This document shows, piece by piece, positions 14,688-44,783 of a stretch of DNA of 45,315 nt. Under the pieces are notes generated by a model. The model was not told the DNA's origin and searched no databases. It was given only the letters and a program-made list of their open reading frames with translations. This stretch comes from Bacteroidales bacterium. Its GTDB lineage: Bacteria > Bacteroidota > Bacteroidia > Bacteroidales > UBA932. The stretch covers positions 1 through 45,315 of the forward strand of contig JAGBAO010000021.1 of the NCBI GenBank assembly GCA_017938925.1, written 5' to 3'. The translations under genes were made by a program, and so were the position numbers. Numbering within the stretch: the first letter of the stretch is position 1; every line of letters begins with the position of its first letter.

Positions 14688-16535
14688 ATGACACAGATTA
14701 ACAGATCAAATTCAATCATGCTTCTTGCCACAAGATTCGACAATCTTGGTGGCTGGACAGTGGAGCAGCAGTTTGTGCTGCAGATGGGATCGAGCTATCT
14801 TCTGGCTCACGGAATCGGAACACCTGTCGCAGAAGACCCTACAACCAAGGTTAAGGTCGAGAAGGCAGGAAAATATACTCTCTGGGTGCGCACCAAGAAC
14901 TGGACTGCGTTCTGGTCAGAGGGCAAGACTCCGGGAATCTTCCAGGTGAAGGTGGATGGCGTTGCAGATGCTGCTGAGTTCGGACTCGGTTGCGAGGGTG
15001 CGACACGTGCTGAGCGCGCTGCATGGTACTGGCAGAAAGGTGGTGAGTATGAACTCGCTGCAGGAGAGCATGAGATCGCCCTTCACGACCTTATGGGCCT
15101 TGACGGACGTTGCGATGCAATTCTCCTTACCACTTCTGGTGAGACTCCGGGCAACAGCCTCGAGGACTACGTGAAGCTTCGTGCGGAACTTCTTCCTACT
15201 CCGGTCGTGGAGAAGGGACACTATGATTTTGTGATTGTAGGTGCCGGTATCTCAGGAATGTGTGCTGCTCTTGCTGCAGCACGTCTTGGCTGCAAGGTGG
15301 CTCTTATCCAGGACCGCTACATCCTGGGTGGAAACAACTCTTCTGAGGTGCGCGTGGGTCTTGGCGGACAGATCAACGTCGATCCGTATCCTGCTCTCGG
15401 ATACCTGCTGAACGAGATCGGTCCTGACCGTATCGGAAACGCACGTGGTGCCCACCACTATCAGGACGACAAGAAGATGAATGTCATCCTTGCCGAGAAG
15501 AACATCACTCTCTTCACAGGATACACAGTGACGGAAGTCGAGAAGGACGGCGACAGGATCAAGGCTGTGACCGCGGTCGAGGCTACAAAGCAGGACAGGA
15601 TACGCATCAGCGGAGACCTGTTCTCAGACTGTACAGGTGACGCTCACCTTGCTGCGATGGCAGGTGCAGAGTGCCGCATGGGCCGTGAGGCTCAGGCTGA
15701 GTTCGGCGAGAAGCTCGCTCCGAAGGAGGCTGACGGATTCACGATGGGCGTGTCCATCGAGTGGTACTGCGAGGACTGGAACACTCCATGCTCGTTCCCT
15801 GATTCACTCGACTGGGGACTCGAACTTGACGAGTACACCGTTGAGCCAGTGCACAGAGCGAACTGGTACTGGGAAGTGGGAATGCGTGATGACCAGGTGG
15901 CTGATGCCGAGAAGATCCGTGACTACGGAATGTATGTGGCATACAGCACATTCTCATACTGCAAGAACCGTCTTGCAAAGAAGGAGGACTGGGAGTGCAC
16001 TCATCTTACATGGGTGAGCCACGTCAGCGGAAAGAGGGAGAGCCGCCGCGTTGTCGGAGACTATATCCTCCGCGAGCAGGATCTCACAAGGCCTATCCTC
16101 CACGAGGACGCGACATGTACGACGACATGGCGTATCGACCAGCACTATCCGGATCCACGCAATGCGGACAAGTATCCTGGCGAGGAGTGGATGTCAATCG
16201 GAGTCCTCACACCGATCGACTTCTATCCGCTTCCATACCGCTGCTTCTACTCAAAGGACATTCCTAATATGTTCATGGCCGGACGTAACATCTCAGTGAC
16301 CCACATAGCTCTCGGATCGACACGAGTTATGCGTACCTGTGGTCTCATCGGAGAGGTTGTCGGCATGGCGGCAAGCATCTGCGCGAAGAAGAATGTGAAT
16401 CCGCGTGATATATATACTACCTACTTCGAGGACCTCAAGGAACTCATGCGCAAGGGTACAGGCCGTACGGATGTCCCTTATACTCAGTTCTATCATCAGG
16501 TTGACCGCACCGGACATCAGGCGGAAGACAGGTAA
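14688..16535 (+). CDS. FAD-dependent oxidoreductase with N-terminal beta-sandwich domain
   Basis: The 615-residue protein has no signal peptide and is probably cytoplasmic. Residues about 12-165 look like a beta-sandwich of the golvesin/xanthan-lyase-associated type (GKYTLWVRTKNW, PGIFQVKVDG, AGEHEIALHDL). A Rossmann FAD-binding unit follows, with GAGISG at residues 185-190. GGNNSSE (214-220), SDCTGDAHLAAMAGAE and the C-terminal PNMFMAGRNISVTHIALGST are features of the FAD_oxidored family found in carbohydrate loci. The reaction is unknown; oxidation of a sugar or sugar-like product is a reasonable guess from context. It is the first gene of the cluster, 27 bases ahead of susC, and lies just downstream of the candidate operators. 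Confidence 0.85.
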   Translation: MTQINRSNSIMLLATRFDNLGGWTVEQQFVLQMGSSYLLAHGIGTPVAEDPTTKVKVEKAGKYTLWVRTKNWTAFWSEGKTPGIFQVKVDGVADAAEFGLGCEGATRAERAAWYWQKGGEYELAAGEHEIALHDLMGLDGRCDAILLTTSGETPGNSLEDYVKLRAELLPTPVVEKGHYDFVIVGAGISGMCAALAAARLGCKVALIQDRYILGGNNSSEVRVGLGGQINVDPYPALGYLLNEIGPDRIGNARGAHHYQDDKKMNVILAEKNITLFTGYTVTEVEKDGDRIKAVTAVEATKQDRIRISGDLFSDCTGDAHLAAMAGAECRMGREAQAEFGEKLAPKEADGFTMGVSIEWYCEDWNTPCSFPDSLDWGLELDEYTVEPVHRANWYWEVGMRDDQVADAEKIRDYGMYVAYSTFSYCKNRLAKKEDWECTHLTWVSHVSGKRESRRVVGDYILREQDLTRPILHEDATCTTTWRIDQHYPDPRNADKYPGEEWMSIGVLTPIDFYPLPYRCFYSKDIPNMFMAGRNISVTHIALGSTRVMRTCGLIGEVVGMAASICAKKNVNPRDIYTTYFEDLKELMRKGTGRTDVPYTQFYHQVDRTGHQAEDR

Positions 16536-16562
16536 CGGAAAACAATAGCCACAGATTATAAT

Positions 16563-19500
16563 ATGAATCCAAATAACCGAAACGGTGCCGCATGGACATT
16601 TGTTCTTGTGCTCGTGATGCTGGTGTTTTCATCTCCATCTCTGAGGGCACAGAGCCATGTGGTTTCCGGAACAGTCCTTGACGAGAACGGTCTCCCGCTG
16701 ATAGGAGCGGGAGTCCTGACTCAGGATGGGAAGCGGGGAGTCATAACTGACCTTGACGGAAAGTACACTATCAGTATCCTGGAATCGGATAAGGTGCTTT
16801 CATACTCATATCTTGGATATGCTACAAGCCAGGTAGTTGTGGATGGGAGGAAACAGATAGATGTCACCTTGAACCCAGACACGTCCAATTCTCTGAATGA
16901 GGTGGTAGTCATCGGATACGGCACCTCGAAAAAGGCAGATCTCACTGGATCTGTAGCTTCCGTGAAGATGGGAGACATCGAGGATGTGCCGACGACCAGT
17001 GTCGATCAGGCCCTGCAAGGAAAGATTGCCGGAGTCGACATCATGTCCACCACTGGAGAACCTGGTGCAGGAACTTCCATCCGTGTGAGAGGAACCCGCT
17101 CGATCGAGGCTTCCAATGAGCCGCTCATCGTTGTTGACGGCGTGATGGATGCTGTGGAGGATATGAACGAGATAAATCCGGACGATATAGAATCCATATC
17201 GATTCTGAAGGATGCATCCTCTACTGCCATCTATGGTTCGAGAGGTGCCAACGGAGTAGTCCTCATCACGACTAAAAAGGGAGTGACCGCGAAGCCGCGA
17301 CTGACGGCAAAGGTCTCTTTCGGAGTGTCTCAACTGTCTCGCAAGCTGGATCTTATGGATTCGGCGGAACTGATCAGATACAGGAATGACTATACCTATA
17401 TAGATGCCTACATCAACAATCCTGCGAAGAATCCGTCAGTGGCAAAATATGATATAGCAGATTTCCCGAACAATACCGACTGGATTGACGAAATTACAAG
17501 GACGGCGTTTTCAGAAACAGCGAATGTGTCTGTTTCCGGCAAGGAGAAGGGAAGCACATATTTCGCTTCACTCGGACTTAACAACACGGAAGGTATAGTG
17601 GACGGAAGCGGATTTCTGCGTATGACGGGTCGTTTCAATGTCACTCATGACTTCACCAAGTGGCTTTCTGCGGGCCTTAAGGCAAACTATACCTTCGCAA
17701 AGGAGAATCCGAACAAGGCAAATATCGGTGGAACCAATGTCTATACGGGTGCGGTGTATCTGGCTCCATACATAGGGGCTTTCGACGAAGTTAATCCTTT
17801 GTATGAGAACGGAACCAAGATCAATACTCCTAGGGTGGCGATCGATATGATCGACCATTATAAAACCAGGCAGAATGCCTCTTTTTCAGGAGAGATAACT
17901 TTGAAACCGGTCAGGGGGCTGATGATAAAGAGCCAGAATACCTATACGCCTCATCAGGTGCATGTGTTCAAGTTCAGCCCAAGCACTCTTCCTGCCAGAT
18001 ATGAAGGCCAGGGAGGTCTGGCCAACAGGACAGAATACAACTCGGATCAGTTGATGACGGAGAATACCCTCAATTACAAGAGCAGGATCGGAAAGAACAA
18101 CAATCTAGACCTTATGGTGGGATATTCTGCAAGCCGTAAGAAGGTGAATCAGGTGATTCTCGCAGCTAACGGAATATTTGACGATAATCTGACATGGAAT
18201 AACCTGAATGCCATAAGCAGCAAGGAGGGATATACCGTAAATTCGACAGACGAGGCCATCGTCCGTCAGTCTGTTTACACAAGACTTAACTACAACTTCG
18301 GCAGCAGATACTATCTGACATTCACAGCCCGCGGCGACGGATCGTCAAACTTTGCGGCCAACAACAAGTGGGGCTTCTTCCCTTCTGGAGCGATCAAGTG
18401 GAATATCAGCAATGAAAAGTTCATGAGAGGGGCACGCTGGATCGATAATCTTTCCCTCAGGCTCAGTGCGGGACTGACCGGAAATGATGCGATTTCTGCA
18501 TATAAATCCTTGGGTATCTACAGTTCTTCGACCAACGGAGCAGTCTTTGAAGGAACTCAGAGTGCCGGCTTCTATCCTAGCCGTGTACCGAATCCGGATC
18601 TTACCTGGGAGAAGACGACTCTCTACAATCTGGGACTGGATTTCTCGATCTTCAAGGAGAGGCTCAGCCTGACAGTCGATGCTTATTATTCAAGGACAAA
18701 TGATCTTCTTCTGACCTTGAAGACGATACAGTCGACCGGATTTTCCAGCCGTTTTACAAATCTGGGACAGACTTCCAACAGGGGAGTCGAGGTCACTATC
18801 GGAAGCCGTAACATCGCGAAGAGGAATTTCGGGTGGTCAACGGAGTTCACCATATCTCATAACTCCCAGATGGTTGATGACATAGGACATGAGGAGTATG
18901 TTGCAGCCATGTCTTCCGGAGGATATATGATGTATGGCTACAAGTCCGGCTATCCGCTGAATGCCCTTTGGGGATTTCAGTATGAAGGGGTGTTCCATAA
19001 TGTCGATGAGGTCTACAAGAATCAGATCACTCACAGCTATGTGAGCCAGACTTCCATATCTGAGGATAATCCTAATTATCATACCCTTCTGGGTAGGGCG
19101 AAGTATGCGGATGTGGACAAGGACGGAAACCTTTCCATCGATGACCTCATATATCTCGGATCTGCCGATCCTGTGGTATATGGAGGACTTCAGAACACCT
19201 TTAATATATATAACCTGAAGATCGGAGTGTATCTGGCCTACTCATTGGGTGGAAAGATCTATAACTATTCCGAACTCTATATGTCCGGAAGTTATTATAC
19301 CAATCAGTACAGATATATGACTGATTCTTGGCATCCTGTCAGGAATCCTGAGTCTGACCTGCCGCGTGCCGGAATAGGCCAGTCGCATCTTCCAAGTTCG
19401 CTGCAGGTTCATGATGCTTCATATCTGCGTCTTAAGACCCTGTCTCTTTCATATACCTTCAATTTCAAGAAACTGAAGAAACCGGTGGTGAAAGGACTTA

Positions 19501-19661
19501 CGATAGGACTCACGGGCGAGAACCTTTTCCTATGGACTGCATACAACGGATTCGATCCGGACGTTTCGACAAGCAGCGAGACTTCTACCCTGCGAAGGGC
19601 TGACGTCGGGGCATATCCGCGTGCAAGACAGGTAATGTTGAATCTCCAAATCAGAATGTAG
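16563..19661 (+). CDS. SusC/RagA-type TonB-dependent outer-membrane transporter
   Basis: This is the outer-membrane channel of a SusCD importer, energised by TonB, 1032 residues. A signal peptide (residues 1-29, cleavage near SLRAQS) leads into a carboxypeptidase-regulatory-like domain (VSGTVLDENGLPLIGAGVL, about residues 35-110). The plug domain follows (NEVVVIGYGTSKKADLTGSV; GSRGANGVVLITTKKG near residue 225), then a long beta-barrel ending in an aromatic-poor QVMLNLQIRM. The start ATG 16563 gives a positively charged n-region. susD follows after 5 bases, the obligate partner. The imported oligomer is not identifiable from this protein alone. Confidence 0.97.
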   Translation: MNPNNRNGAAWTFVLVLVMLVFSSPSLRAQSHVVSGTVLDENGLPLIGAGVLTQDGKRGVITDLDGKYTISILESDKVLSYSYLGYATSQVVVDGRKQIDVTLNPDTSNSLNEVVVIGYGTSKKADLTGSVASVKMGDIEDVPTTSVDQALQGKIAGVDIMSTTGEPGAGTSIRVRGTRSIEASNEPLIVVDGVMDAVEDMNEINPDDIESISILKDASSTAIYGSRGANGVVLITTKKGVTAKPRLTAKVSFGVSQLSRKLDLMDSAELIRYRNDYTYIDAYINNPAKNPSVAKYDIADFPNNTDWIDEITRTAFSETANVSVSGKEKGSTYFASLGLNNTEGIVDGSGFLRMTGRFNVTHDFTKWLSAGLKANYTFAKENPNKANIGGTNVYTGAVYLAPYIGAFDEVNPLYENGTKINTPRVAIDMIDHYKTRQNASFSGEITLKPVRGLMIKSQNTYTPHQVHVFKFSPSTLPARYEGQGGLANRTEYNSDQLMTENTLNYKSRIGKNNNLDLMVGYSASRKKVNQVILAANGIFDDNLTWNNLNAISSKEGYTVNSTDEAIVRQSVYTRLNYNFGSRYYLTFTARGDGSSNFAANNKWGFFPSGAIKWNISNEKFMRGARWIDNLSLRLSAGLTGNDAISAYKSLGIYSSSTNGAVFEGTQSAGFYPSRVPNPDLTWEKTTLYNLGLDFSIFKERLSLTVDAYYSRTNDLLLTLKTIQSTGFSSRFTNLGQTSNRGVEVTIGSRNIAKRNFGWSTEFTISHNSQMVDDIGHEEYVAAMSSGGYMMYGYKSGYPLNALWGFQYEGVFHNVDEVYKNQITHSYVSQTSISEDNPNYHTLLGRAKYADVDKDGNLSIDDLIYLGSADPVVYGGLQNTFNIYNLKIGVYLAYSLGGKIYNYSELYMSGSYYTNQYRYMTDSWHPVRNPESDLPRAGIGQSHLPSSLQVHDASYLRLKTLSLSYTFNFKKLKKPVVKGLTIGLTGENLFLWTAYNGFDPDVSTSSETSTLRRADVGAYPRARQVMLNLQIRM

Positions 19662-19666
19662 CCGAT

Positions 19667-21328
19667 ATGAAAAGAATGACATATATATTGACGGTTTTCA
19701 TGGTTTTCCTGCTGACGTCATGTTCGTTGGAGGAGAAGCCTCTCGGATATGTGACAAAGGAGACATTCTATCAGACTGAAGAACAGTGCTATTCAGCCCT
19801 GAGGGGGTGCTATACGCCGCTGCATTATATCTATTGCAATACATTTCTCTATGCGACGGAAGCCTGCACGGACATCTGGTTCTGTAATTCTGCGGATCTC
19901 AATGCGCAGCTTGCCATAACTCCTGCAAAACCGGGTGTGGCAACGACTGTGTGGACATACGGTTACAAGGGTGTGGCGCGTGCTAACGAGTGTGTGGAAT
20001 GCATCGCAGCCTCTCCGCTCAAGGAATCGGTCAAGATGCCTATGGTGGCCGAAGCCAGAGCCATGAGGGCACTGTATTACTATGTGCTTACTTCCTTCAT
20101 GGGTGACGTTCCTTTCTACACCTATGCTGTCAGTGATGTTGAGGCGATGGAGGAAATAAGAATGCTTCCGAGGACATCTGCGGATCAGATCAGGGATTCT
20201 CTGTATAATGATTTGAAAGATAATGCCTTGCCATATTTTACAGAGGCAAATGGTCTGAAGTGCAGGGCCAATCAGGTGAAGAACCAGCATGCGGGATATG
20301 CCTTGAGCCTGATGCTGATGGCGAAGTTTGCGATGTGGAACGAGGCTTGGGATGATGCTCTGTATACCTTGAATCTGCTTGAGGAAACTTACGGCGAGTT
20401 CAACGAGGGCAACTTCCCGTTGGAAGATGTCAAGTGGAGCATAAAGAATCCGGATGAGAGCATTTTCGAGATCGAGCATGCCTGGGATGCCAACGGAGTG
20501 AAATTCTACGGTGGCATAGCAAGTCTGATGTGTCCTAAATGTTCCGGTGAAGGAATGTATGACGGAGTCTATATGAAGGACCTTAGCCAGACCGGTTCGA
20601 ATGCGACATCCATCAGGGCTACAAATCATTATGCTCTGTTCAGATCGGCAGATAATAAGAAATCGGAGAATGCTCAGAACAAGAACGGGCTGTTTTCTGC
20701 TATGCCGATGAAACTGAGTAATGAAACGTATGATACGGGGAAAGCCAAACGTTATTGCTCGGATATAGATCCTGATGCATTGACAAGCGGAGCGACTGCA
20801 AATGGCAGTCCGCTTGACAGGCGAATCCAGTACACTCTGGGACTGGGCAACTGGGAGACGGGAGAGACGTTTGCAAATCTGCGCACCGGGGGATTCTTCT
20901 ATGGCGGTCCGAAGTTCTGGTGTTACGGCATGACGGCAAACTATGACAGCAACAACTATCGTATCCTCAGATATGCCGATGCGGTTCTGATGCAGGCTGA
21001 ATGTCATTATGAACTCGGTAATGAGGGCAAGGCCATCGAATATCTGAACAAGACGAGAAACCGTGCTGGCATCGGAGACTATGTCTATACGACAAATGTA
21101 GAACTGCTCCGTGAAATCCAGAACGAGAGGGCTCGTGAACTCGGTGGAGAGTTCCACCGCAAGTTCGATCTTGTGCGTTGGGATATCTGGTATGAAATGA
21201 CAAAACAGTACAACGGAGAGCAGCGTGTAAAGGATAACATACGTCGTTGCCACCGTTTCTATCCGATTCCGGACACGGAATGTGCTCTTTCCGGAGGAAT
21301 ATTAACTAACGATGAATATGAACTGTAG
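19667..21328 (+). CDS. SusD/RagB-type surface substrate-binding lipoprotein
   Basis: SusD-like proteins form a lid over SusC and bind the oligomeric substrate at the cell surface. The 553-residue protein has a lipobox ending in LLTSC (Cys19). ETFYQTEEQCYSALRGCYTPL is the usual N-terminal SusD helix. ARAMRALYYYVLTSFMGDVPFY (about residues 137-158) is the conserved RagB/SusD segment, and RILRYADAVLMQAECHYELG with RNRAGIGDY and ARELGGEFHRKFDLVRW near the C terminus are family hallmarks. Its stop is one base before the next gene's preferred start. It is translationally linked to susC by a 5-base gap. Confidence 0.97.
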   Translation: MKRMTYILTVFMVFLLTSCSLEEKPLGYVTKETFYQTEEQCYSALRGCYTPLHYIYCNTFLYATEACTDIWFCNSADLNAQLAITPAKPGVATTVWTYGYKGVARANECVECIAASPLKESVKMPMVAEARAMRALYYYVLTSFMGDVPFYTYAVSDVEAMEEIRMLPRTSADQIRDSLYNDLKDNALPYFTEANGLKCRANQVKNQHAGYALSLMLMAKFAMWNEAWDDALYTLNLLEETYGEFNEGNFPLEDVKWSIKNPDESIFEIEHAWDANGVKFYGGIASLMCPKCSGEGMYDGVYMKDLSQTGSNATSIRATNHYALFRSADNKKSENAQNKNGLFSAMPMKLSNETYDTGKAKRYCSDIDPDALTSGATANGSPLDRRIQYTLGLGNWETGETFANLRTGGFFYGGPKFWCYGMTANYDSNNYRILRYADAVLMQAECHYELGNEGKAIEYLNKTRNRAGIGDYVYTTNVELLREIQNERARELGGEFHRKFDLVRWDIWYEMTKQYNGEQRVKDNIRRCHRFYPIPDTECALSGGILTNDEYEL

Positions 21329-21329
21329 C

Positions 21330-21701
21330 ATGAAGACATCGATAAGGATATTGTTTGTAACTGTAGTTCTGATGCTTGCGGCAGGCTGTCAGAAGCCGTT
21401 CGAGAAGCATTATGACCTGGCGGTTGATTCAAACGCATACACCCTTCCATATACCGGGGACACTTTCCCGCTTTATGTCTATTGCTCCGGGGCCTGGACC
21501 GCTGAATTTGATGCGGAGGTGTCGTGGATAAGGATTGAGGAGGGAACTGAGAAGGGACAGGGAAACGGTGTTGTCCGTATCACATATAAGGACAATGACG
21601 ATGCTCTTCGTCAGGTGAATCTGGTGCTCAGGAGCGGAGAGTTCACTCAGACAGTCGCTTTGGAGCAGAAGTATAACTCTACACATATGGTGGTGGAATG
21701 A
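21330..21701 (+). CDS. Small BACON-domain lipoprotein
   Basis: This is a 123-residue lipoprotein. I prefer ATG 21330, one base after the susD stop, because it gives MKTSIRILFVTVVLMLAAGC with the lipobox Cys at residue 20; ATGs at 21312 and 21318 inside susD are alternatives. The mature part is a single BACON-like beta-sandwich (YTLPYTGDTFPLYVYCSGAW, VSWIRIEEG, then a strand pair ending TQTVALEQK). BACON domains are mostly found in Bacteroidetes surface glycan-handling proteins, where they act as spacers or binding modules. The next gene overlaps its stop (ATGA). Together the two encode the same domain order found fused in the protein at 23278. Confidence 0.82.
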   Translation: MKTSIRILFVTVVLMLAAGCQKPFEKHYDLAVDSNAYTLPYTGDTFPLYVYCSGAWTAEFDAEVSWIRIEEGTEKGQGNGVVRITYKDNDDALRQVNLVLRSGEFTQTVALEQKYNSTHMVVE

Positions 21702-23275
21702 GAAGACTGGCAACATTCATGATGGCAGTAATAGTCTCCGTGTCTGCAGTGCAGGCACAGAGCATTGCTGCGCTATGGAACCTGTGTCCTAAGGGCGGTT
21801 CAGTCGTTCTTCAGTCCCATGTCGTGGCTGACATGGTCGTGGTCAGTGACTGCGACAGTCCCAATATGTCTCCATCCCTCAACGTTTCTGTCGGGACTTT
21901 GGAGAGCCGCTGGAACAGGAGGACTGCATTTGTGCAGACACCTGACGGGAAGGTGGGACTCAGACTGATCTTCGCAAGCGCAGGAGAGAACGCCCTTCAC
22001 AAGGGAGATATGGTGAAGATGGACTTCCATGGATGTAAGATTTCACGTTCGCGCAAGCCAGATGCAATCACTGTGGAAGGAGTACGTGCCGTGAATAATA
22101 TCTTGTCATGCACTCCGGGAGGAGTCATTCCTGTCAAGGAAAAGTATATATCGGAACTCACTGACCGGGACATAAACACCTATGTCACTCTCAAGGATAT
22201 CGACATAGTGTTCAAGGACGGGTCCTACTATAATGTCCATGAAGATTATACCGTCAAGATGGACGGCTGGGCGACTCTCATGAGAGATTCACAGGGAAGT
22301 GGTATATATATGCATCTGACAAATGCCTGTCCTTGGAGAAGGACAGGAAAGGAACTTCCTGCGGGAACGGGAACCCTCAGCGGCATCATTGTCAGTGAGC
22401 AGAACCGCCGCTACGGCCCTGATATGGGCCTTTATGGCATCCGTCCTCTTGATGAGTCGGATATTGCGCTGGAGTCTGGGAAGTCTCCATGGAAGACTCT
22501 TGTCGGCTGGGTAAAGCCGGAAGGAAGCGGACAGTCTCTTGATTTCGAGATATCCGGAACAGTAGGAGGACTTTTCAAGAAAGGTATTGCGAATGACAGG
22601 ATATACAACGATGTGGGAAATACTGCTGCTTTCCTGTGGACAGACAGCGGTTCGGAGGTACGTGTGTACTCGGGTTATAACAGCATCTCCCGTGAGAACC
22701 ACGGATTTGTCGGAAACTGCGCCTTGATGTTCATCGGACGCAGTGTGGACTGGTATGTCTGGGATGGAGCAGGCAATGTTGTGGACACGCGGTCGTTCTT
22801 CGTGTCATTCAACGCGTCGAAACTCAAGGGATGCGTCGCCCAGCTTGCCATAGAGTGGTCTGCCGGAACCCAGGACGGAAACAAGAGCTGGTTCTACCCG
22901 ATAGACTGGAAGGCAGAGTGTTCTGCGGATGGTGAGAACTGGTACAGCCTGCGTGATGCTGCAACCGGCTCTGAGCGGATAATGCTTCATAATGTCCCAT
23001 GGAATGACTGTGTCGTGAAAGGTTCCGGCCATGACTTCAAGAAGAAACCGAATTATGATACGGCCATGGGACCACAGCAGCATTCATTCATGCTTCCCGA
23101 GCAGGTGCTTGGATCCAAGGAGGTCATTATCAGGCTTACTCCGGCTTCGACAGACGTCGCTAAGGTCAGGGTGGAAGCTCCTACCTCATACAGAAACGGA
23201 CAGATTACAGACAAGGATACGGAACGAGAAACATGGATAAGGTTCGAGTCCATTCAAATCGATTATAAGAAATAG
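21698..23275 (+). CDS. Secreted DUF5689-like protein, paralogue 1
   Basis: The 525-residue protein has a type I signal peptide (MRRLATFMMAVIVSVSAVQA). Two regions are recognisable. One is a DUF5689-like segment, predicted OB-like (about residues 20-260), with VVSDCDSPNM, VGLRLIFASAGENALHKGD, KEKYISELTDRDINTYVTLK and GTGTLSGIIVSEQNRRYG. The other is a C-terminal beta-rich region (about 265-525) with WYVWDGAGN and FYPIDWKAECSADGENWY, which looks like a carbohydrate-binding-module-type jelly roll. The same two-region layout occurs in the products at 23278 and 26350. It overlaps the preceding lipoprotein gene by four bases. Position after susD suggests a surface glycan-binding-protein role, but the type I signal leaves its location unclear. 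Confidence 0.8.
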   Translation: MRRLATFMMAVIVSVSAVQAQSIAALWNLCPKGGSVVLQSHVVADMVVVSDCDSPNMSPSLNVSVGTLESRWNRRTAFVQTPDGKVGLRLIFASAGENALHKGDMVKMDFHGCKISRSRKPDAITVEGVRAVNNILSCTPGGVIPVKEKYISELTDRDINTYVTLKDIDIVFKDGSYYNVHEDYTVKMDGWATLMRDSQGSGIYMHLTNACPWRRTGKELPAGTGTLSGIIVSEQNRRYGPDMGLYGIRPLDESDIALESGKSPWKTLVGWVKPEGSGQSLDFEISGTVGGLFKKGIANDRIYNDVGNTAAFLWTDSGSEVRVYSGYNSISRENHGFVGNCALMFIGRSVDWYVWDGAGNVVDTRSFFVSFNASKLKGCVAQLAIEWSAGTQDGNKSWFYPIDWKAECSADGENWYSLRDAATGSERIMLHNVPWNDCVVKGSGHDFKKKPNYDTAMGPQQHSFMLPEQVLGSKEVIIRLTPASTDVAKVRVEAPTSYRNGQITDKDTERETWIRFESIQIDYKK

Positions 23276-23277
23276 AT

Positions 23278-36762: not shown

Positions 36763-37962
36763 ATGAGAACTGATGCAATGTTTAAGATGAGGGGTGTGCT
36801 TGCGGTTGTATTATGTCTGTTCCTGAGTGCCTGCACCCAGGATAGACAGACCCCGCCGGCAGCAGCGCCAGCCGACGGCAAGGGCGTGTATGCCAATTAT
36901 GATTTCCATGCCCAGGTGACCGACGAACCGGTTCCTCAGGGCTATGAGCCCTTCTATATAACCCACTACGGCCGTCATGGAGCCCGTCATATAAACCGTG
37001 AATGGGAGTATGATGCTGTGGCCACGGTGCTTGGGGAGGCGTCTCTCACTCCGTTCGGACAGGAGATCAAGGCTGAGTTCGACAGGATATACCCTCATCT
37101 GAAGGGGCGTGCCACGGACCTTACGCTTCTGGGGCGTGAGCAGCACAGGCATCTTGCACGAAGGATGTATGAGGCCTGGCCGGAGGTGTTCCGCGGCAGG
37201 TGTCATGTCGAGGCGGTTTCGTCTGACATCCCGCGCTGCATCCTGAGCATGAATGCCTTTCTGTCATCGCTTGAAGATTGCAGGGCTTCGATAAGCACTT
37301 TCGCTGATGTGAACTCGGCTCTTGTTCCGGTTCTCAAGAAGAAGCCTCTTGTGCGCATAGATGCAGACGCTAAGTTCTACGAGTGCTTCGATCCGGATGC
37401 ACTGTATGGACGTCTGTTTACGGATGTAGAGGCAGCAAGGAAATTATATGCGGTGCCGGACTTTGTCCGTTCGCTCTTCTATTTCGGGGCTCATCTGGAA
37501 TGTGTAGGCTTTGACGACACGGTGATGCGCGGGGCGTTCACTGATGAGGAGGCCTCTGTGATGGCTGATCTGGACGACTATAAGTTCTTCCACCACTGCG
37601 GGTGGGGCACGCAAGTGAATGTGGCCTCTTCATGGCCTCTTCTGGAGCATTTCGTGACAATGGCTGACATCGACATCGCTACAGGAGATACCGATGTGCG
37701 TCTGAGATTCGGACATGACAACACTCTGATGCCTTTGATGGCTCTCATGAAGGTGGGTGCGTTTGCCGGAGAATCGATTGACAGCGATATGGTCCCGATG
37801 GCGGCTAACCTGAGATGGATTTTTGCCCGCAACAAGGCAGGGAATGTCATAATGAAGGTGCAGTATAATGAAAGCGACGTGACTCCATGGACACCATGGA
37901 CGGAATACCGCGACTTCTGTCTCGGACAGATCGAGTGGGCGAAGTCACTGCTGGATTCCTGA
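36763..37962 (+). CDS. Histidine acid phosphatase lipoprotein (phytase-like branch)
   Basis: Branch-2 histidine phosphatases remove phosphate from sugars, inositol phosphates and other esters through a phosphohistidine. With the start at 36763 the protein has 399 residues; ATGs at 36778 and 36787 are alternatives that shorten the n-region before the lipobox LSAC. The nucleophile motif YGRHGARH is at residues 70-76 (His72). The C-terminal proton-donor motif is FGHDN (His318-Asp319), the HD form seen in AppA-like enzymes and unlike the HAE form of MINPP. It is probably anchored in the outer membrane. It follows the metallophosphoesterase gene by 12 bases, giving two phosphatases of different folds side by side. 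Confidence 0.88.
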   Translation: MRTDAMFKMRGVLAVVLCLFLSACTQDRQTPPAAAPADGKGVYANYDFHAQVTDEPVPQGYEPFYITHYGRHGARHINREWEYDAVATVLGEASLTPFGQEIKAEFDRIYPHLKGRATDLTLLGREQHRHLARRMYEAWPEVFRGRCHVEAVSSDIPRCILSMNAFLSSLEDCRASISTFADVNSALVPVLKKKPLVRIDADAKFYECFDPDALYGRLFTDVEAARKLYAVPDFVRSLFYFGAHLECVGFDDTVMRGAFTDEEASVMADLDDYKFFHHCGWGTQVNVASSWPLLEHFVTMADIDIATGDTDVRLRFGHDNTLMPLMALMKVGAFAGESIDSDMVPMAANLRWIFARNKAGNVIMKVQYNESDVTPWTPWTEYRDFCLGQIEWAKSLLDS

Positions 37963-37970
37963 AAAAGACT

Positions 37971-40181
37971 ATGAGATATATTGTCAGTATACTATCCTTT
38001 TTGCTTTGCATTTCGTGCTCCAGAACTCTGGAGTACGGTGATGTGGTGTTTGTGCATCAGCATGGCGGCCCGGTCATCGGGGTGAGCCGCTTGTCCGGCG
38101 TGACGGTGCTGACTGAGGAAGGCAAGGAATTCAAGGATGCAGACAGGGATGGAACTCTAGATGAGTTTGAAGACTGGCGCCTGTCTCCCGAAAGACGTGC
38201 ACAGGACCTTGCCGAATGTCTGACTGTTGAGGAGATGGTGGGGCTGGCCCTTCATTCGCCTCAGCAGCAGATTCCATATAAGAAGAACAAACCGATGTAC
38301 TCCGGGCTCCCTTATTCGGAAAGCGGTGCCGAGCCTTGGACGCTGACTGACGTGCAGAAGGAATGTATAGTGAAGCATCACGTGAGGCATTTCCTGATCA
38401 AGACTGTAGAGTCTGTCGAGGCAGCGGTGAAGTGGAACAATGCCGCTCAGGCCCTTGCGGAGTCGGGACGAGTTGCAATCCCTCTGAACAATTCTTCAGA
38501 TCCGAGACATTCTCTCAGAGCGGATCCCGAGTTTACTGCCGGAGGAGGAGACATCTCCATGTGGCCGGAGGCTTTGGGCCTGGCTGCTACATTTGATGCG
38601 GAACTCCAGAGACAGTATGGGGAAATCGTCGCCAAGGAACTGCGCGCTTTGGGAATGACCACGTTTCTGGGACCTCAGATAGACATGGGCACAGAGCCCA
38701 GATGGTTCAGATATTCCTGCTGCATGGGAGAGTCTCCCGAATTCATTACGGCTGCGGCACGCGAATTCTGTGATGCACTTCAGACAACGCCGGAAAGCAT
38801 GACCGGGTGGGGCTCTGAGAGCGTTATTGCCATGGCAAAGCATTGGCCTGGCGGCGGTTCATGCGAAGCAGGACGCGATGCTCATTATGGAAGTGGAAAA
38901 TACGCGGTGTATCCGGGCGGCAACTTTGAACTGGGTAAACGGCCTTTCAGGGACGGTGCCTTGAATCTTCCCGGAAAGACAGAAAAGGCGGCTGCGATAA
39001 TGCCGTATTACTCAATATCTTATGGTGTTACGGGAAATAATCTCGGACAGGCGTTCGACAAGGAGATCATCACTGCTCAGTTGAGGGATTCCCTCGGATA
39101 TGATGAACTTGTCTGCACGGACTGGATGATCACGGATGACTACAAAGGCCCGGGTGTCCATTACGGCAAGCCTTGGGGAATGGAGGAAAATACCAAGGCG
39201 GAGAGGTTCCTTCAGGCATGGACAGCCGGATGCGACCAGTTCGGTGGCAATCTCGATTATGCTTCTGCTATGGAGGGATATCGGCTCGGTGTCGCAAGAT
39301 TCGGGGAAGATTTCATGACAGGACTTCTTCGCAAGTCCTCTGAAAGGATCCTCCGCAATATGTTCCGGGTGGGCCTTTTCGAGAATCCATATCTTGTGGT
39401 TGAAGAATCCGAAGCCATCGTTGCCCGTGAAGATTTCTGCAAGGCCGGCTATGAGGCTCAGCTCAGAAGCATAGTCATGCTGAAGAACGGTTGCCTGCCT
39501 TTGAGCAAGGATATGAAACTCTATGTTCCGGATCAGATCATCCCGGCTCATATGAGTTATTGGAACAGGATGTCTGGACCTGACACATTGCGTCACTCCC
39601 GGGCAGTGCGCTCAGGCGGTGATTTCTGCGTGACGGAGACTCCGGCGGAAGCAGATGCTGCACTTGTGTTCATAAATGCGCCTATGCCGCTGAAGGGGTA
39701 TGACGACGGATATGTGCCCAAGCCGCTTCAATATTCACCATATACTGCCGATCATGCCCGAAGCTGCAGTATTGCCGGAGGAGATCCGTACGAAAGGACT
39801 TCGGACCGGAGTTATGTGGGAAAGTCTGCTCAGGTATATAATTCCTGTGACCTTGAACTTGTCAGACGGGTCAGAGAGGAAATCGGTGACAGGCCTCTCG
39901 TGCTGGTGGTTCAGTATGAGAATCCGTTTGTTCCTTCAGAGATCGAGCCTTATGCAGATGCCATCCTGCTCGTTTCCTTTGTCCAGCACCCAGCTGTGAT
40001 GGAGGTTGTGATGGGAGATTTTGAACCGGAGGGAAAACTTCCGTGCCAGCTGCCTGCCGACATGAAGACTGTGGAACAGCAATTTGAAGACACCCCGTTC
40101 GATATGGACTGTCATGTCGATGAGAACGGTAACAGATATGATTATTCTTTTGGATTGAACTGGAAAGGAGTTATAAAATGA
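37971..40181 (+). CDS. Glycoside hydrolase family 3 lipoprotein
   Basis: The start is ATG 37971, which gives MRYIVSILSFLLCISC with lipobox Cys16 (736 residues) and follows the phosphatase stop by 8 bases; a longer reading to 37887 would overlap that gene by 76 bases and is rejected. A short acidic segment DADRDGTLDEFEDW resembles the calcium-binding opening of many GH3 proteins. The TIM-barrel has LGPQIDMGTEPRWFR, AMAKHWPGGG and CTDWMITDDY, with Asp384 as the likely nucleophile. An alpha/beta sandwich follows (VMLKNGCLPLSKD). The specificity could be beta-glucosidase, xylosidase or related, and cannot be settled by eye. It overlaps the next gene by four bases. Confidence 0.92.
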   Translation: MRYIVSILSFLLCISCSRTLEYGDVVFVHQHGGPVIGVSRLSGVTVLTEEGKEFKDADRDGTLDEFEDWRLSPERRAQDLAECLTVEEMVGLALHSPQQQIPYKKNKPMYSGLPYSESGAEPWTLTDVQKECIVKHHVRHFLIKTVESVEAAVKWNNAAQALAESGRVAIPLNNSSDPRHSLRADPEFTAGGGDISMWPEALGLAATFDAELQRQYGEIVAKELRALGMTTFLGPQIDMGTEPRWFRYSCCMGESPEFITAAAREFCDALQTTPESMTGWGSESVIAMAKHWPGGGSCEAGRDAHYGSGKYAVYPGGNFELGKRPFRDGALNLPGKTEKAAAIMPYYSISYGVTGNNLGQAFDKEIITAQLRDSLGYDELVCTDWMITDDYKGPGVHYGKPWGMEENTKAERFLQAWTAGCDQFGGNLDYASAMEGYRLGVARFGEDFMTGLLRKSSERILRNMFRVGLFENPYLVVEESEAIVAREDFCKAGYEAQLRSIVMLKNGCLPLSKDMKLYVPDQIIPAHMSYWNRMSGPDTLRHSRAVRSGGDFCVTETPAEADAALVFINAPMPLKGYDDGYVPKPLQYSPYTADHARSCSIAGGDPYERTSDRSYVGKSAQVYNSCDLELVRRVREEIGDRPLVLVVQYENPFVPSEIEPYADAILLVSFVQHPAVMEVVMGDFEPEGKLPCQLPADMKTVEQQFEDTPFDMDCHVDENGNRYDYSFGLNWKGVIK

Positions 40182-41671
40182 AAAAACTGCTATTGAGTCT
40201 TATGTTTCTTCTTCCTATGTTGGGGAATGCAGCCAAAAAGCCTTATTCCCTGACATGGAATGACTTCAACATCAAGGATGATACGGGCTTGATGGTCCTG
40301 GGACAGATAAATACTCTGACCCCTGCCATAGATATGGATTCGCGATGGTCAATCGGCTGCGAGTGCCTCGACAGGGATTATGCCGATTTTGACAGGATCA
40401 GGGATTTTTATGGCGGGCTCGGTGCCGGATATGCCCGTGTGCAGTCAGGCTGGGCCAGATGTGAGAAGGAGGAAGGTATATATGATTTCGCATGGCTGGA
40501 CAGAATCGTGGACGGACTGATCGGACAGGGTGTGAAGCCGTGGATGTGTCTGTGTTACGGCAATCCTATATATACGGAAGGAGGAATTTCCCTCAATGCC
40601 ACGATCTTTACCGACAGGAAGACGACTCAGGCGTGGAGCCGTTATGTCCAGGCCCTTGTGAAGCATTTCAAGGGAAGAGTCCATATGTATGAAGTCTGGA
40701 ACGAGCCGGACAGCGGAGAAAATAAGAAATATCCGGAAAGATACGGTGACCTTTTTGCCGTTACAGCGAAGGCCATACGCAAGGCTGATCAGGATGTGAT
40801 GATAGCTGGTGGTTCCTTCACAGCCCGTTTCAGAATGGACTGGATCACCAAGGCACTTGACCGCATGAAGGAAAAAGGTGTGATCGAACTCCTGCAGGCC
40901 GTGACCTTCCATCCTTACTATCCGGTTCCGGAGGAGGCGACAGATGCCATTCTCCGTCTGAAGGAACTGGTCAGAAGTTATAACCCTTCGACCATACTCC
41001 TGCAAGGCGAATCCGGATGCCCATCCCAACTGGAATACAACCACGCTCTCTGCTATCATAAATGGACGGAGTACAGCCAGGTGAAATGGATCCTGCGCAG
41101 GATGATGTGCGATTTCTCGCTTGATATTCCGTCTTCCATCTTCACGATGGTCGACCTGCAGTACGACTTCATGCTCCAGTCATTCGGACTCGTGAGGATG
41201 AATCTTCTGAAAGAGCCTGTCTATAAGCGTCCTTCGTATTATGCCGTGAGTCATATGGTTTCCCTGCTGGATTCTGAAAAAGAACCTTATGAGGGAGTGT
41301 CAGTCAAGGAGAGCACGGGCCGTGAAATCAAGGCCGCCGGTATATCAAAGGACGGGAAGTGCGTTGCAGTGGCATATTGGAAGGGAGATGACAAGCCGTC
41401 CGATATGCTGGAGAAGGATAAGGTCAATGCCCTGATCCAAGGTGTCGTCTTTGAGAATCCGGTCCTGCTGGATCCGATCACAGGAAGGGTCTATGACCTG
41501 AGTTATGTGATGCTTCGTGGAGGGCAGCAGAGACTTGCGGATGCAACCAAGTTCACCGGACTCCCTTTGTGGGATGCACCGCTTGTAATCATAGAGAAGG
41601 ATGCCTTCGACTGGGAGCCTCGTGAACTCCCTGAGGGCTATGTGCCTTTTGTGGATCATGTCGGAATATAG
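40178..41671 (+). CDS. Clan GH-A glycoside hydrolase, GH39-like
   Basis: The 497-residue protein has a type I signal peptide (MKKLLLSLMFLLPMLGNAA). The TIM-barrel opening YARVQSGWARCEKEEG and FAWLDRIVDGLIGQGVKPWM is typical of GH39 and some GH5-like enzymes. The acid/base is probably Glu176 in EVWNEPD and the nucleophile Glu278 in LLQGESGCPS. A small C-terminal beta domain follows. A family assignment beyond clan A is tentative; GH39-type xylosidase or a related retaining hydrolase is the best guess. The gene overlaps the GH3 gene (ATGA). It is separated from the GH30 gene by 66 bases containing a dispersed-repeat-like sequence. Confidence 0.8.
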   Translation: MKKLLLSLMFLLPMLGNAAKKPYSLTWNDFNIKDDTGLMVLGQINTLTPAIDMDSRWSIGCECLDRDYADFDRIRDFYGGLGAGYARVQSGWARCEKEEGIYDFAWLDRIVDGLIGQGVKPWMCLCYGNPIYTEGGISLNATIFTDRKTTQAWSRYVQALVKHFKGRVHMYEVWNEPDSGENKKYPERYGDLFAVTAKAIRKADQDVMIAGGSFTARFRMDWITKALDRMKEKGVIELLQAVTFHPYYPVPEEATDAILRLKELVRSYNPSTILLQGESGCPSQLEYNHALCYHKWTEYSQVKWILRRMMCDFSLDIPSSIFTMVDLQYDFMLQSFGLVRMNLLKEPVYKRPSYYAVSHMVSLLDSEKEPYEGVSVKESTGREIKAAGISKDGKCVAVAYWKGDDKPSDMLEKDKVNALIQGVVFENPVLLDPITGRVYDLSYVMLRGGQQRLADATKFTGLPLWDAPLVIIEKDAFDWEPRELPEGYVPFVDHVGI

Positions 41672-41679
41672 AGGGAGAC

Positions 41680-41714
41680 TGTCATTCCGACTGAGCGAAG
41701 CGAATGGAGAAATC
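41680..41714 (+). repeat. Dispersed intergenic repeat-like element
   Basis: The sequence TGTCATTCCGACTGAGCGAA (41680-41699) continues with GCGAATGGAGAAATCT. This closely resembles an intergenic element I recognise from many Bacteroidetes genomes (GTCATTTCGAC..GAGCGAAGCG..GAGAAATCT). It can form a small hairpin (CATTC with GAATG). It occupies most of the gap between the GH39-like and GH30 genes. Confidence 0.5.
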
Positions 41715-41737
41715 TATAAATAAAAAATATATATTCA

Positions 41738-43159
41738 ATGAAAACTAAGCCAATAACAGTAATAGCGTCATTCCTTATATGCCTCACTTCCACTGCCCAG
41801 GTGTATGTCCCGAAAGAGGGTGAGATCCGTTTCAAGGTTCTTCAGACCACTAAGGACAAGCCTCTGCATCAGATCAGGACAAGTTCCTTCACACAGCATC
41901 CGTTCTCGGCGATGAAATCCATAGACCTGGACTCGGCGAAGCCTTCCCATGAGTATTTCGGTTGTGGAGTGTCGATGACTGACGCTTCCTGCTGGATTCT
42001 GTCTCAGATGGATCCGGAGGCCCGTCACAAGCTTCTGAAGGATGCCTTCTCGACTCGTGGCATGAACCTTTCCATGGTCCGTCTGAACTGTGGCGCAAGT
42101 GACTATTCGACAGAACTGTATAATTATAACGACACTCCCGGTGACGTAGAGATGAAGAACTTCTCCATTGCCCGTGACCAGGCGTATCTCATCCCTGTAG
42201 TGAAGCAGATATACACCTATTGTCCTGACCTTTTCGTCTATTCGGCCGTATGGAGTGTCCCGGGCTGGATGAAGGATTCCGGCAGCATGTGCGGCGGCAG
42301 CCTTCTGGATGAGTATCTTCCGGCATTTACAAATTACTGGGCGGCTTATCTGGATGCATATAAGAAAGCCGGCATAGAGATAGACGCGTTTTCTGTCCAG
42401 AACGAGCCGGCTACCGATCAGAGAGGATATAATCCTGCTACCTATGTCTCTGCAAAACAGGAGATCGAACTAGCCGGCAGACTGCTCCCTTCCGCATTGA
42501 AGAAGAAGGGACTTGACCCTCAGATCTGGGTGTGGGACCACGATTACGGCGGATGGGAGCGTGTCATGGAAGTCCTTGCAGACAAGAATGTGAGAAAGAA
42601 CATCTCGGCAGTTGCATGGCATCCGTACAGCGGCAAGCCGTCGATGATGAAGAACATAACCAGGGAATATCCCGGCACGGTGATGCACCTTACCGAGCGC
42701 GGACCTAATCTTGTCATGAAGGATGTCCAGGACCCCAAATGGTTTGCGGATGTGATCTTCGGAGCCTTGAACAACGGATGTTCTTCATATTCAAGCTGGA
42801 ATCTTGTGCTGGATCCGGACGGACAGCCTTGTACTGGAAGATATGCCTGCGCAGGTCTTGAAACTGTGGATCTTCAGACAGGAAAGGTCACAAAAAGTCA
42901 CCAGTACACTGTCTTCCATCAGTTCAGCCCTTATGTGAAGAGGGGTGCGAAGGTGATGGCGATCGAGCAGCCGGAAGAGGACATCACGGCTATAACTTTC
43001 CGTAATCCGGACGGCGAATATGTGATATGTGTCGCGGCAGGCTGCAAGCCTAAGACCCGTCAGAGGGTGCAGGTGAAGTTCAAGGACCAGTATCTGGGAC
43101 TTCCCCTTCCGATGGAGACATGGTCGCTCACGACAATAATAATAGAGAAAGGCCAGTAG
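41738..43159 (+). CDS. Glycoside hydrolase family 30
   Basis: The 473-residue protein has a type I signal peptide (about residues 1-21, ending LTSTAQ). The GH30 (beta/alpha)8 barrel is recognised by YFGCGVSMTDASCWILSQ, GMNLSMVRLNCGASDYS, YSAVWSVPGWMKDSG, FSVQNEPATDQ with acid/base Glu223, and VMHLTERGPN with nucleophile Glu320. A C-terminal beta domain ends with LPMETWSLTTIIIEKG. GH30 members include beta-1,6-glucanases, glucosylceramidases and xylosidases. Pairing with a GH3 recalls beta-1,6-glucan loci, but that is only suggestive. It probably acts in the periplasm or at the surface. Confidence 0.93.
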   Translation: MKTKPITVIASFLICLTSTAQVYVPKEGEIRFKVLQTTKDKPLHQIRTSSFTQHPFSAMKSIDLDSAKPSHEYFGCGVSMTDASCWILSQMDPEARHKLLKDAFSTRGMNLSMVRLNCGASDYSTELYNYNDTPGDVEMKNFSIARDQAYLIPVVKQIYTYCPDLFVYSAVWSVPGWMKDSGSMCGGSLLDEYLPAFTNYWAAYLDAYKKAGIEIDAFSVQNEPATDQRGYNPATYVSAKQEIELAGRLLPSALKKKGLDPQIWVWDHDYGGWERVMEVLADKNVRKNISAVAWHPYSGKPSMMKNITREYPGTVMHLTERGPNLVMKDVQDPKWFADVIFGALNNGCSSYSSWNLVLDPDGQPCTGRYACAGLETVDLQTGKVTKSHQYTVFHQFSPYVKRGAKVMAIEQPEEDITAITFRNPDGEYVICVAAGCKPKTRQRVQVKFKDQYLGLPLPMETWSLTTIIIEKGQ

Positions 43160-43196
43160 TATTGAGAAGGAATATTAACAACTAAACAGATATATA

Positions 43197-44783
43197 ATGA
43201 CATTTATTGACTGGACGATTATCGCCTTTTTCCTGGGCGCATTGATTGTGATCGGATATCTGTTCTCCAAAAAGAACAGGAATATCGAGGATTATTTCAT
43301 GGCAGGCCGTTCCATGCCGGGCTGGCTGGTGGCGATTGCAGCTACAGGCACTTCCATCAGTGCCGGAACATTCGTAGGCTCTCCGGAACTGGGATTCAAC
43401 ACTAACCTTACCTATGTGATGAACCTTATCGGAGCAATCTGTGGCGGAACCCTTGTTGCAGCCCTCATCCTTCCGCGTCTGTACAATGCGAAGACCATTA
43501 CCATCTATGGATATATAGGCGACCGATTCGGCGAGCCGTCAAAGAAGGCGACATCAATAATGTTCCTTGTAGGCCAGCTTTTCACCTCAGGCAGCCGTCT
43601 TTTCATTGCCGCCATTGCAATCAGCGTGATTGTGTTCGGTAACATCCAGTTCCAGTTCATGGTGTGGAGCATCATAATCCTCGGTCTGGTTTCCACCATA
43701 TACACCATGCTCGGAGGAATCAAGGGACTTCTCTATATCGACACATTCCAGACTCTCCTGATGATATTCACCGGAGTGCTTGCTCTTGTCCTGATCGCAT
43801 TCAGCCTCGGTGACTACAGCTTTGCTCAGATATGGCAGACTCTCACGGCGGATGGACTTGTGAAGGCTCCTGCAGCTGCAGGAGTGGCTCCAGGTCTGGC
43901 AGCAGACGGCACATTGAACGGCTGGGTGGAAGGCAACAAGTTGCAGATATTCGATCCTTCGCTTGATTTCAGCAAGCCATACACCATCCTTGGCGGTCTG
44001 ATCGGTGTGGCTGTATTCAAGATCGCTCAGTTCACTACCGACCAGGAGTTCGTACAGCGTCAGCTTACATGCAAGGATGTGAAACAGGCCGGCCGTTCTC
44101 TGGTGGTTTCACAGCTGCTCAGCCTTCCTACGGTGCTGGTATTCCTCTGCATCGGTCTTCTTCTTTATGCCAAATACAAACTGGATCCGATGACTGACGG
44201 TTTGCTCAGTGCAGGCTTCTTTGCAGATGCACGTGATGTCTTCCCGCAGTACATCAAGAACCATATCCCGGTGGGAGTCCGCGGCCTTATGATCACCGGA
44301 CTTCTTGCAGCTGCTCTTTCCAGTTTCAACTCAGCCATCAATTCCATGGCCTCCAGCTTCGTGGCAGACCTTTATCTGCCAATCCGTCAGCAGCGTGGAA
44401 AGGCTGAGCAGAACGATGCGGATCAGATCGCTTCATCACGCTGGATCGTGATTCTGATGGGTGTGCTTCTGACTGCATTTGCAATCCTCACATGTGTGAT
44501 GCAGCAGTCAAGCGGCCTGAACCTCGTGGACTTTGCCACAGGAGTCATGTGCTTTGCCTATGTGGGCATGCTCGGAGTCTTCCTGACAGCCATCTTCACC
44601 AAGAGGGGAAACAACACAAGCGTGATCGCATCTCTTGTAGTCGGAATGCTTATAATCATTCCTCTGATGTTCCAGAAGGAACTCTTCGGCCAAAACTACA
44701 TCGCCTGGACATGGTGGTGCCCTATCGGAGCAATAGTCACAACCCTTATCTGCCTTGCCGGCAAACCCCGTAAGATAGCCTAG
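43197..44783 (+). CDS. Sodium/solute symporter family (SSS/SLC5) transporter
   Basis: The 528-residue inner-membrane protein has about 13-14 hydrophobic helices. Family features are the N-terminal KKNRNIEDYFMAGRSMPGW, the unwound first helix ATGTSISAGTFVGSPE, YTMLGGIKGLLYIDTFQTLL, and FTTDQEFVQRQLTCKD with GLLAAALSSFNSAINSMASS. These proteins use the sodium gradient to import sugars, sialic acid, nucleosides, vitamins or other solutes; the substrate is not told by these motifs. Coming last in the SusCD operon, 37 bases after the GH30 gene, it is the likely inner-membrane route for the final monomer. Its stop codon is inside a hairpin. Confidence 0.93.
   Translation: MTFIDWTIIAFFLGALIVIGYLFSKKNRNIEDYFMAGRSMPGWLVAIAATGTSISAGTFVGSPELGFNTNLTYVMNLIGAICGGTLVAALILPRLYNAKTITIYGYIGDRFGEPSKKATSIMFLVGQLFTSGSRLFIAAIAISVIVFGNIQFQFMVWSIIILGLVSTIYTMLGGIKGLLYIDTFQTLLMIFTGVLALVLIAFSLGDYSFAQIWQTLTADGLVKAPAAAGVAPGLAADGTLNGWVEGNKLQIFDPSLDFSKPYTILGGLIGVAVFKIAQFTTDQEFVQRQLTCKDVKQAGRSLVVSQLLSLPTVLVFLCIGLLLYAKYKLDPMTDGLLSAGFFADARDVFPQYIKNHIPVGVRGLMITGLLAAALSSFNSAINSMASSFVADLYLPIRQQRGKAEQNDADQIASSRWIVILMGVLLTAFAILTCVMQQSSGLNLVDFATGVMCFAYVGMLGVFLTAIFTKRGNNTSVIASLVVGMLIIIPLMFQKELFGQNYIAWTWWCPIGAIVTTLICLAGKPRKIA

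Follow-up and report, generated by a model that had tools for sequence, protein, structure and literature searches.

We analysed a 45,315-nucleotide stretch of a Bacteroidales genome (GTDB lineage UBA932), here called the window, which is the entire contig C25 (JAGBAO010000021.1) of an assembly of 2.67 Mb in 34 contigs that is 92% complete. Among plasmid-collection records, the closest rpoB matches of this genome come from Bacteroidales, at some 70% DNA identity, and its genus may be Cryptobacteroides. The window holds a run of 17 genes on one strand (14688–44783) that includes a SusC–SusD pair, with a divergent gene for a LacI-family repressor beside it. With roughly even confidence, we read these genes as part of one LacI-repressed operon, probably of 19 genes, which would encode an uptake and catabolism chain for a phosphodiester-containing glycoconjugate. 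Judged by sequence comparison, the operon has two parts: an outer module of SusCD, BACON/DUF5689 proteins and an S1/P1-family enzyme, which is variable and fast-diverging, and an inner module of an FAD oxidoreductase (FADox), a Na+/solute symporter (SSS), an alcohol dehydrogenase (ADH), a PfkB kinase and often a histidine phosphatase, which recurs in the genus.

The named genomes were searched with a nine-row SusD alignment, giving 377 confirmed SusD relatives; the best 80 were kept, and the two nearest loci were extended along their contigs. These are locus L039 of the goat rectum metagenome-assembled genome (MAG) RGIG2950 (G062; also G421) and locus L038 of UBA4360 (G061; also G086). The original prediction would have been refuted by a gene set not conserved in relatives, and the set is conserved: the counterparts of all 17 window genes in G062 lie within a single run of 21 genes on one strand, separated by −8 to 42 bases, and the G061 operon contains 12 of the 17, with a GH3 gene (45% identity) just upstream. 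After LacI, the order in G062 is peptide, beta-helix, FADox, SusC, SusD, BACON, DUF5689, BACON-DUF5689, S1/P1, DUF5689 paralogue, fn3, metallophosphoesterase, GH3, GH39, GH30, histidine phosphatase, SSS, ADH, PfkB, GH2-like and GH31-like (the last two named from similarity or below-cut-off matches alone). This order departs from that of the window only at the peptide/beta-helix pair and at the histidine phosphatase. Since G062 keeps every counterpart in one tight same-strand run, the window's gene run is evidently no chance pile-up.

Re-listing the open reading frames (ORFs) bore out the predicted 17 genes on one strand, one of which, the 56-residue ORF at 31253–31423, is overlooked at a 100-residue cut-off. 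Taking the longest ORFs, the 16 gaps measure 27, 5, −17, −4, 2, −4, −26, 6, 10, 2, 6, 12, −76, −4, 66 and 37 bases. Later starts at 21318, 26350 and 37971 turn the overlaps of −17, −26 and −76 into −11, −11 and +8, and with these three start codons moved the gap figures given earlier, including the three wider gaps of 27, 66 and 37 bases, are correct. The features of the locus are as follows.

13455–14477, minus strand: LacI-family repressor, divergent (Pfam LacI and Peripla_BP_3; 85% identical to the G062 LacI, 56% to the G195 LacI).
14552–14595, no strand: operator-like array, two exact copies of GGGAACGGTTGC and one diverged copy.
14688–16535, plus strand: FAD_oxidored enzyme (FADox), 615 residues (PF12831, E = 4e-71; 87% and 78% identity in G062 and G061).
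16563–19661, plus strand: SusC TonB-dependent transporter (TIGR04056, 845 bits).
19667–21328, plus strand: SusD lipoprotein (PF07980, PF14322; lipobox).
21312–21701, plus strand: small BACON-like lipoprotein, 129 residues (PF13004, E = 6e-4, below cut-off; lipobox).
21698–23275, plus strand: DUF5689-family protein, 525 residues; C-terminal half predicted to be a CBM4/CBM22-like jelly roll.
23278–25521, plus strand: BACON and DUF5689 lipoprotein, 747 residues (PF18942, 34.4 bits, over cut-off; BACON below cut-off).
25518–26360, plus strand: S1/P1-nuclease-family enzyme with signal sequence (PF02265, E = 2e-14).
26335–27969, plus strand: DUF5689-family paralogue, 544 residues, likely start 26350 (alignment A1; no Pfam match).
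27976–31242, plus strand: fn3 lipoprotein, 1088 residues (PF00041; lipobox).
31253–31423, plus strand: 56-residue peptide with C-terminal PEGYxIDxxxFxW; three diverged homologues share this C terminus.
31426–34305, plus strand: beta-helix-type surface protein, 959 residues (PF02415, Chlam_PMP, repeats).
34312–36750, plus strand: calcineurin-like phosphoesterase lipoprotein of MetallophosN/C type (PF16371, PF00149, PF16370; lipobox).
36763–37962, plus strand: branch-2 histidine phosphatase lipoprotein (PF00328).
37971–40181 (ORF opens at 37887), plus strand: GH3 glycosidase (PF00933, PF01915).
40178–41671, plus strand: GH39-like glycosidase (PF01229).
41738–43159, plus strand: GH30 glycosidase (PF02055).
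43197–44783, plus strand: Na+/solute symporter, SSS (TIGR00813, over cut-off; 92% identity in G062).
44884–45315, plus strand: Zn-alcohol dehydrogenase (ADH), 5′ part, truncated where the contig stops (synteny with G062).

Identity to G062 is uneven along the operon. It is high for SSS (92%), GH30 (91%), FADox (87%), LacI (85%), GH39 (81%) and GH3 (77%), intermediate for SusC (68%), the metallophosphoesterase (63%) and SusD (59%), and low for the DUF5689 set (45–53%), BACON (47%), S1/P1 (41%), beta-helix (41%), fn3 (39%) and the histidine phosphatase (36%); rpoB (96%) and purA (93%) serve as references. On these figures, the outer parts diverge fastest and the inner module is kept, a pattern in which synonymous sites leave fast evolution and replacement indistinguishable.

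FADox homologues (E ≤ 1e-60) occur in 108 of 300 congeners and, at ≥70% identity, in at least 30 congeners besides the window's own genome, one of these being a fragment. Thirty FADox neighbourhoods were compared (the window, G061, G062, 19 further genomes, contig C29 of the window's own genome and 7 more). SSS directly follows FADox in 12 of them (G286, G302, G103, G122, G124, C29, G195, G152, G073, G235, G245 and G297) and has another place in the locus in six (the window, G061, G062, G294, G318 and G189). The loci in G294 and G318 comprise LacI, FADox, SusC, SusD, fn3, peptide, beta-helix, metallophosphoesterase, GH30, Exo_endo_phos, SSS, ADH and PfkB, and that of G294 also the histidine phosphatase; their SusC is just 28% and their LacI just 22% identical to the window's, and neither locus showed a DUF5689 or S1/P1 gene. 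In these two genomes, the same inner module is coupled to an unrelated SusCD.

On contig C29, LacI is fused in frame to FAD_oxidored in one protein (L164:7977–10853; Pfam LacI, Peripla_BP and FAD_oxidored), an odd union of transcription factor and redox enzyme that lies between GDPD and SSS genes. FADox matches also fall within open frames of 939–967 residues in G152, G248, G269, G073, G135 and G202, where the comparison covered the FADox part only.

The SusD relatives were scored for phosphodiesterase-type genes (S1/P1, Exo_endo_phos, metallophosphoesterase or GDPD) within 10 kb. The best 80 of the 377 come from Sphingobacterium, Parapedobacter, Dysgonomonas, Alistipes and Muribaculum, among others; the isolate Alistipes montrealensis kh20 (L040), for example, carries the SusCD–DUF5689–S1/P1 type, with no FADox in the 21.6 kb examined. 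Of these 80, a DUF5689-family gene is present in 68, a phosphodiesterase-type gene in 63 and both in 56; 12 are without a DUF5689-family gene and 17 without a phosphodiesterase-type gene, some of these loci being short, and the 80 are not independent cases, as they include near-duplicates (e.g., L085/L086) and two loci already used as alignment rows (L044 and L056). The window's own genome has 37 SusD genes by Pfam, seven of the window type and 30 others. A phosphodiesterase-type gene lies in the operons of all seven versus 7 of the 30 (Fisher p = 3.3e-4), a comparison in which the phosphodiesterase hidden Markov models (HMMs) were seeded from window-type loci and so favour them, and in which, among the 30, L206/L207 look duplicated, L226/L229 overlap and the operon rule splits some runs. 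Thus the combination of nuclease and phosphatases, part of the gene mix that the original prediction called atypical, is usual for this SusD type. The unusual part is instead the attached FADox/symporter/dehydrogenase/kinase module, which lies partly beyond the contig.

Curated models add to these counts in the window's own genome. Pfam DUF5689 matches five of the seven window-type loci and 3 of the 30 other SusD stretches, and the 16 Exo_endo_phos matches divide into six in window-type stretches, five in other SusD stretches (one duplicated) and five outside the fetched stretches. Related loci in this genome or in congeners G009 and G010 also have curated GDPD, NAGPA, metallophosphoesterase and S1/P1-type matches. 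Because differing phosphodiesterase families adjoin the same SusD type, phosphodiester cleavage appears to be the common theme, with the enzyme family changing from locus to locus. The six further window-type SusCD loci of the window's genome, which differ in this way, lie on C16, C7 and C8 (L019–L021, L023, L024, L026 and L029). Outside the window type, DUF5689 and Exo_endo_phos adjoin SusD in L206 (G000:C5:272800–292799) and L207 (C13:12300–32299), an apparent duplicated stretch of the MAG with equal SusD, DUF5689 and Exo_endo_phos scores.

The LacI ORF had been called to 14651, which is over-extended; its true start is at about 14477, at MRHITIKD, and this leaves a 210-bp intergenic region that holds the operator-like array. 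In G062, the array has the same spacing, though the first downstream gene differs (peptide/beta-helix versus FADox in the window), and a third instance lies in G195 between LacI (56% identity) and FADox (53% identity). The two-copy pattern was found in 5 of 400 congeners, three of the five at window-type LacI loci; the other two matches fall inside unrelated reading frames, as expected from a reversed-pattern control (3 of 400). Given this conserved array with its triple GGGAACGGTTGC-type repeat, the divergent LacI probably controls the operon, presumably as a repressor.

The operon probably extends past 44783 into ADH and PfkB (17 + 2 genes), since ADH begins 100 bases further on and G062 has SSS–ADH–PfkB with gaps of 20 and 11; a terminator-like match at 44825–44837, between SSS and ADH, speaks against this extension. 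Contig C25 ends inside the ADH gene, in a repeat. Another contig of this genome, C29, stops at the identical base within a further copy of ADH (96.8% identity over 435 bases), while C28 and C26 each start within ADH. The assembly thus broke at one and the same base in a pair of near-identical ADH genes. On C28, ADH and PfkB come first; purA and ssb, encoded on the opposite strand, are next, followed by an aroE-like gene. Because this flank is the same as in G062, C28 is most likely the continuation of the window. C29–C26 would then be a sister locus, with a gene order as in G152. Upstream of the operon (1160–13438) lie tRNA-Trp, ribosomal-protein, rpoBC and MscS genes; this neighbourhood is probably not conserved, since G062 has rpoB on contig C172 and the operon on C23.

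The S1/P1 protein scores 54.9 bits with PF02265 (cut-off 29.5). The nine zinc-ligand positions of the S1/P1 motif, which include the mature N-terminal Trp, correspond to W21, H26, D61, H78, H132, D136, H142, H181 and D185, all invariant among the five sequences of alignment A3; the signal sequence could end so that this Trp is the first mature residue. With PF18942 (DUF5689, cut-off 28.6 bits), the 747-residue protein scores 34.4, the 525-residue protein 23.7 and the 544-residue protein gives no match, and the three align as one family (alignment A1). The window's 56-residue peptide has no Pfam or NCBIfam match. Peptides of 53–61 residues (31253–31423; L039:2283; L198:11548; L199:11479) have diverged almost throughout, apart from the C-terminal PEGYxID..xFxW, and each of the four is encoded directly upstream of a beta-helix surface-protein gene.

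In the chain we favour, SusD, the BACON proteins and the DUF5689/jelly-roll proteins would hold the polymer at the surface, as their families and one predicted fold suggest. Its phosphodiesters would be cleaved by the S1/P1 protein and by the MetallophosN/C phosphoesterase, both so assigned by family, and SusCD would import the pieces. The histidine phosphatase and GH3, GH39 and GH30, which have N-terminal signal-like sequences and are therefore probably located outside the inner membrane, would remove phosphate and sugars there. SSS would then move the polyol or sugar so released across the inner membrane; in the cytoplasm it would be oxidised by FADox (in which no signal sequence is apparent by eye) and ADH and phosphorylated by PfkB, in keeping with their families and co-conservation. 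Array-bound LacI would repress the operon until a released metabolite appears. A composite substrate, as in the original prediction, fits the gene content in the form of phosphate plus sugar.

Several observations weigh against this chain. The histidine phosphatase is just 36–40% identical to its G062 counterpart and has a different place in the operon. A close SSS is absent from 12 of the 30 FADox neighbourhoods, although in five of the 12 a gene of the SSS family (20–24% identity) lies nearby, and a GH31-like gene is near in seven of the 12 (G293, G134, G076, G023, G320, G305 and G182). No exact array was found at the G061 locus, which also showed no S1/P1 gene, no genes for the 525- and 544-residue proteins and no recognisable peptide, so that these are not strictly needed for the substrate. 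To these points must be added the 17 relatives lacking a phosphodiesterase-type gene, the non-independence of the 80, the seeding of the HMMs and the promoter- and terminator-like matches described below.

Nucleic acid is the main rival substrate and is live for the outer module. DNA or RNA foraging, in which DUF5689 would bind, S1/P1 and the metallophosphoesterase digest, SusCD import oligonucleotides and PfkB handle the pentose, is nevertheless an improbable account of the operon. It draws on the S1/P1 family with its ligand positions kept and on the Exo_endo_phos-type genes that adjoin many SusD relatives. The one DUF5689 protein for which we found a phenotype is RA0C_RS04920 of Riemerella: the excerpts of PMC8459023 used here treat it as indispensable to natural transformation and propose that it binds extracellular DNA, and mutants of the SusC/RagA family also transform less there. 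This protein shares the DUF5689 domain and a predicted surface location with the window, and its adjacent gene, predicted to encode an outer-membrane protein with a carboxypeptidase-regulatory domain, is a further likeness; however, its role is in competence, not nutrition, and it has a DUF5017-superfamily domain (PMC8459023, same excerpts). Foraging for nucleic acid also leaves three glycosidases, FADox, SSS and ADH unexplained. In G294/G318, the inner module occurs with an unrelated SusCD, no DUF5689 or S1/P1 gene having been seen there, and the DUF5689-family protein has a C-terminal half that is predicted to be CBM-like.

A division into two or more separately transcribed units that happen to adjoin is less likely still. 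Between 30500 and 45315, there are 21 promoter-like matches versus 16.8 expected (standard deviation (sd) 4.1) and 18 terminator-like matches versus 10.3 expected (sd 2.7); between 13000 and 30500, both counts are at expectation. Promoter-like matches closely precede the genes for the beta-helix protein (31398), the histidine phosphatase (36721) and SSS (43113, 43115), making internal promoters possible, and a terminator-like match (44825–44837) lies inside the 100-base SSS–ADH gap. These matches and the wider gaps of 27, 66 and 37 bases would suit separate units. However, the scan found no terminator-like match in the 66- and 37-base gaps, G062 keeps the same run with gaps of up to 42, and the promoter model is of E. 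coli type, little used by Bacteroidota. Spacing, conservation and the one operator array together argue for a single transcript.

We think it doubtful, more so than separate units, that the substrate is an inositol-phospholipid head group (phosphatidylinositol or glycosyl-inositol-phosphoceramide) or phytate. The histidine phosphatase has 7r5y as its closest solved structure, followed by inositol polyphosphate phosphatase (MINPP) entries such as 4fdt, GDPD genes occur in related loci, and the G062 ADH and PfkB score on the IolM and IolC_N models, below cut-offs. GH30 is closest to 2wnw, which we take to be SrfJ, and to 5ngk. In Salmonella, srfJ is expressed with myo-inositol, according to the part of PMC5723671 consulted. 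The idea is weakened by iolD (TIGR04377, cut-off 715 bits), which is over cut-off in none of seven genomes (19.3 bits in the window's own; at best 243.6 in G152 and 233.5 in G421), and by the best ADH model, threonine 3-dehydrogenase. In addition, the phosphatase has GHD where it aligns to 7r5y at the proton-donor motif, in place of the HAE that is presumably the motif of MINPP phytases. Least likely is a phosphate utilisation system (Pus) for phosphate scavenging, as in Flavobacterium: the Pus arrangement as published has SusCD next to phosphodiesterases and phosphomonoesterases (PMC8115612, in part), and the window has it too, but the divergent LacI and the carbon-catabolic module (SSS, ADH, PfkB, glycosidases) point to carbon, and none of the 17 genes is PhoBR or a phosphate transporter by Pfam. 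These alternatives overlap, some concerning substrate and one transcription, and their probabilities are not bound to add up to one.

The usual reading of SusCD systems is that they import glycans. With SusCD polysaccharide utilisation loci (PULs), the window shares an adjacent SusC–SusD pair, surface lipoproteins, a one-direction operon and glycosidases (GH3, GH39 and GH30, all over Pfam cut-offs); it differs in adding phosphodiesterase- and phosphatase-type genes, its own inner-membrane symporter, cytoplasmic-type catabolic enzymes and a divergent LacI. The B. thetaiotaomicron PUL for beta-1,6-glucan, to which we take BT3312 to belong, likewise has GH30 and GH3 with SusCD. The window's GH30, tried as a BT3312 endo-1,6-beta-glucanase equivalog, scores only 190.7 bits with NF053856 (cut-off 700), and the window adds phosphoesterases and the FADox module. 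Among published concepts, PusCD of Flavobacterium comes nearest, and the window differs from it by its adjoining LacI, glycosidases and polyol-type catabolism; the portions of the paper used here make no mention of DUF5689 (PMC8115612).

More tentatively, DUF5689-marked SusCD loci might be importers of phosphodiester polymers (nucleic acids or glycosyl-phosphates) throughout the phylum, from gut Bacteroidales to Sphingobacterium. DUF5689/jelly-roll proteins would then be the polyanion-binding surface part, functionally related to the Riemerella DNA-uptake protein, and the window would show this outer module plugged into a LacI-controlled FADox–symporter–dehydrogenase–kinase core that is able to pair with an unrelated SusCD as well. 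DUF5689 offers a marker with a testable binding function, and the conserved LacI array together with the recurring FADox–SSS–ADH–PfkB core offers testable handles on a pathway. Because a phosphodiesterase-type gene accompanies so many of the best SusD relatives (63 of 80), many Bacteroidota loci annotated as PULs may instead import nucleic acids or phospho-glycoconjugates.

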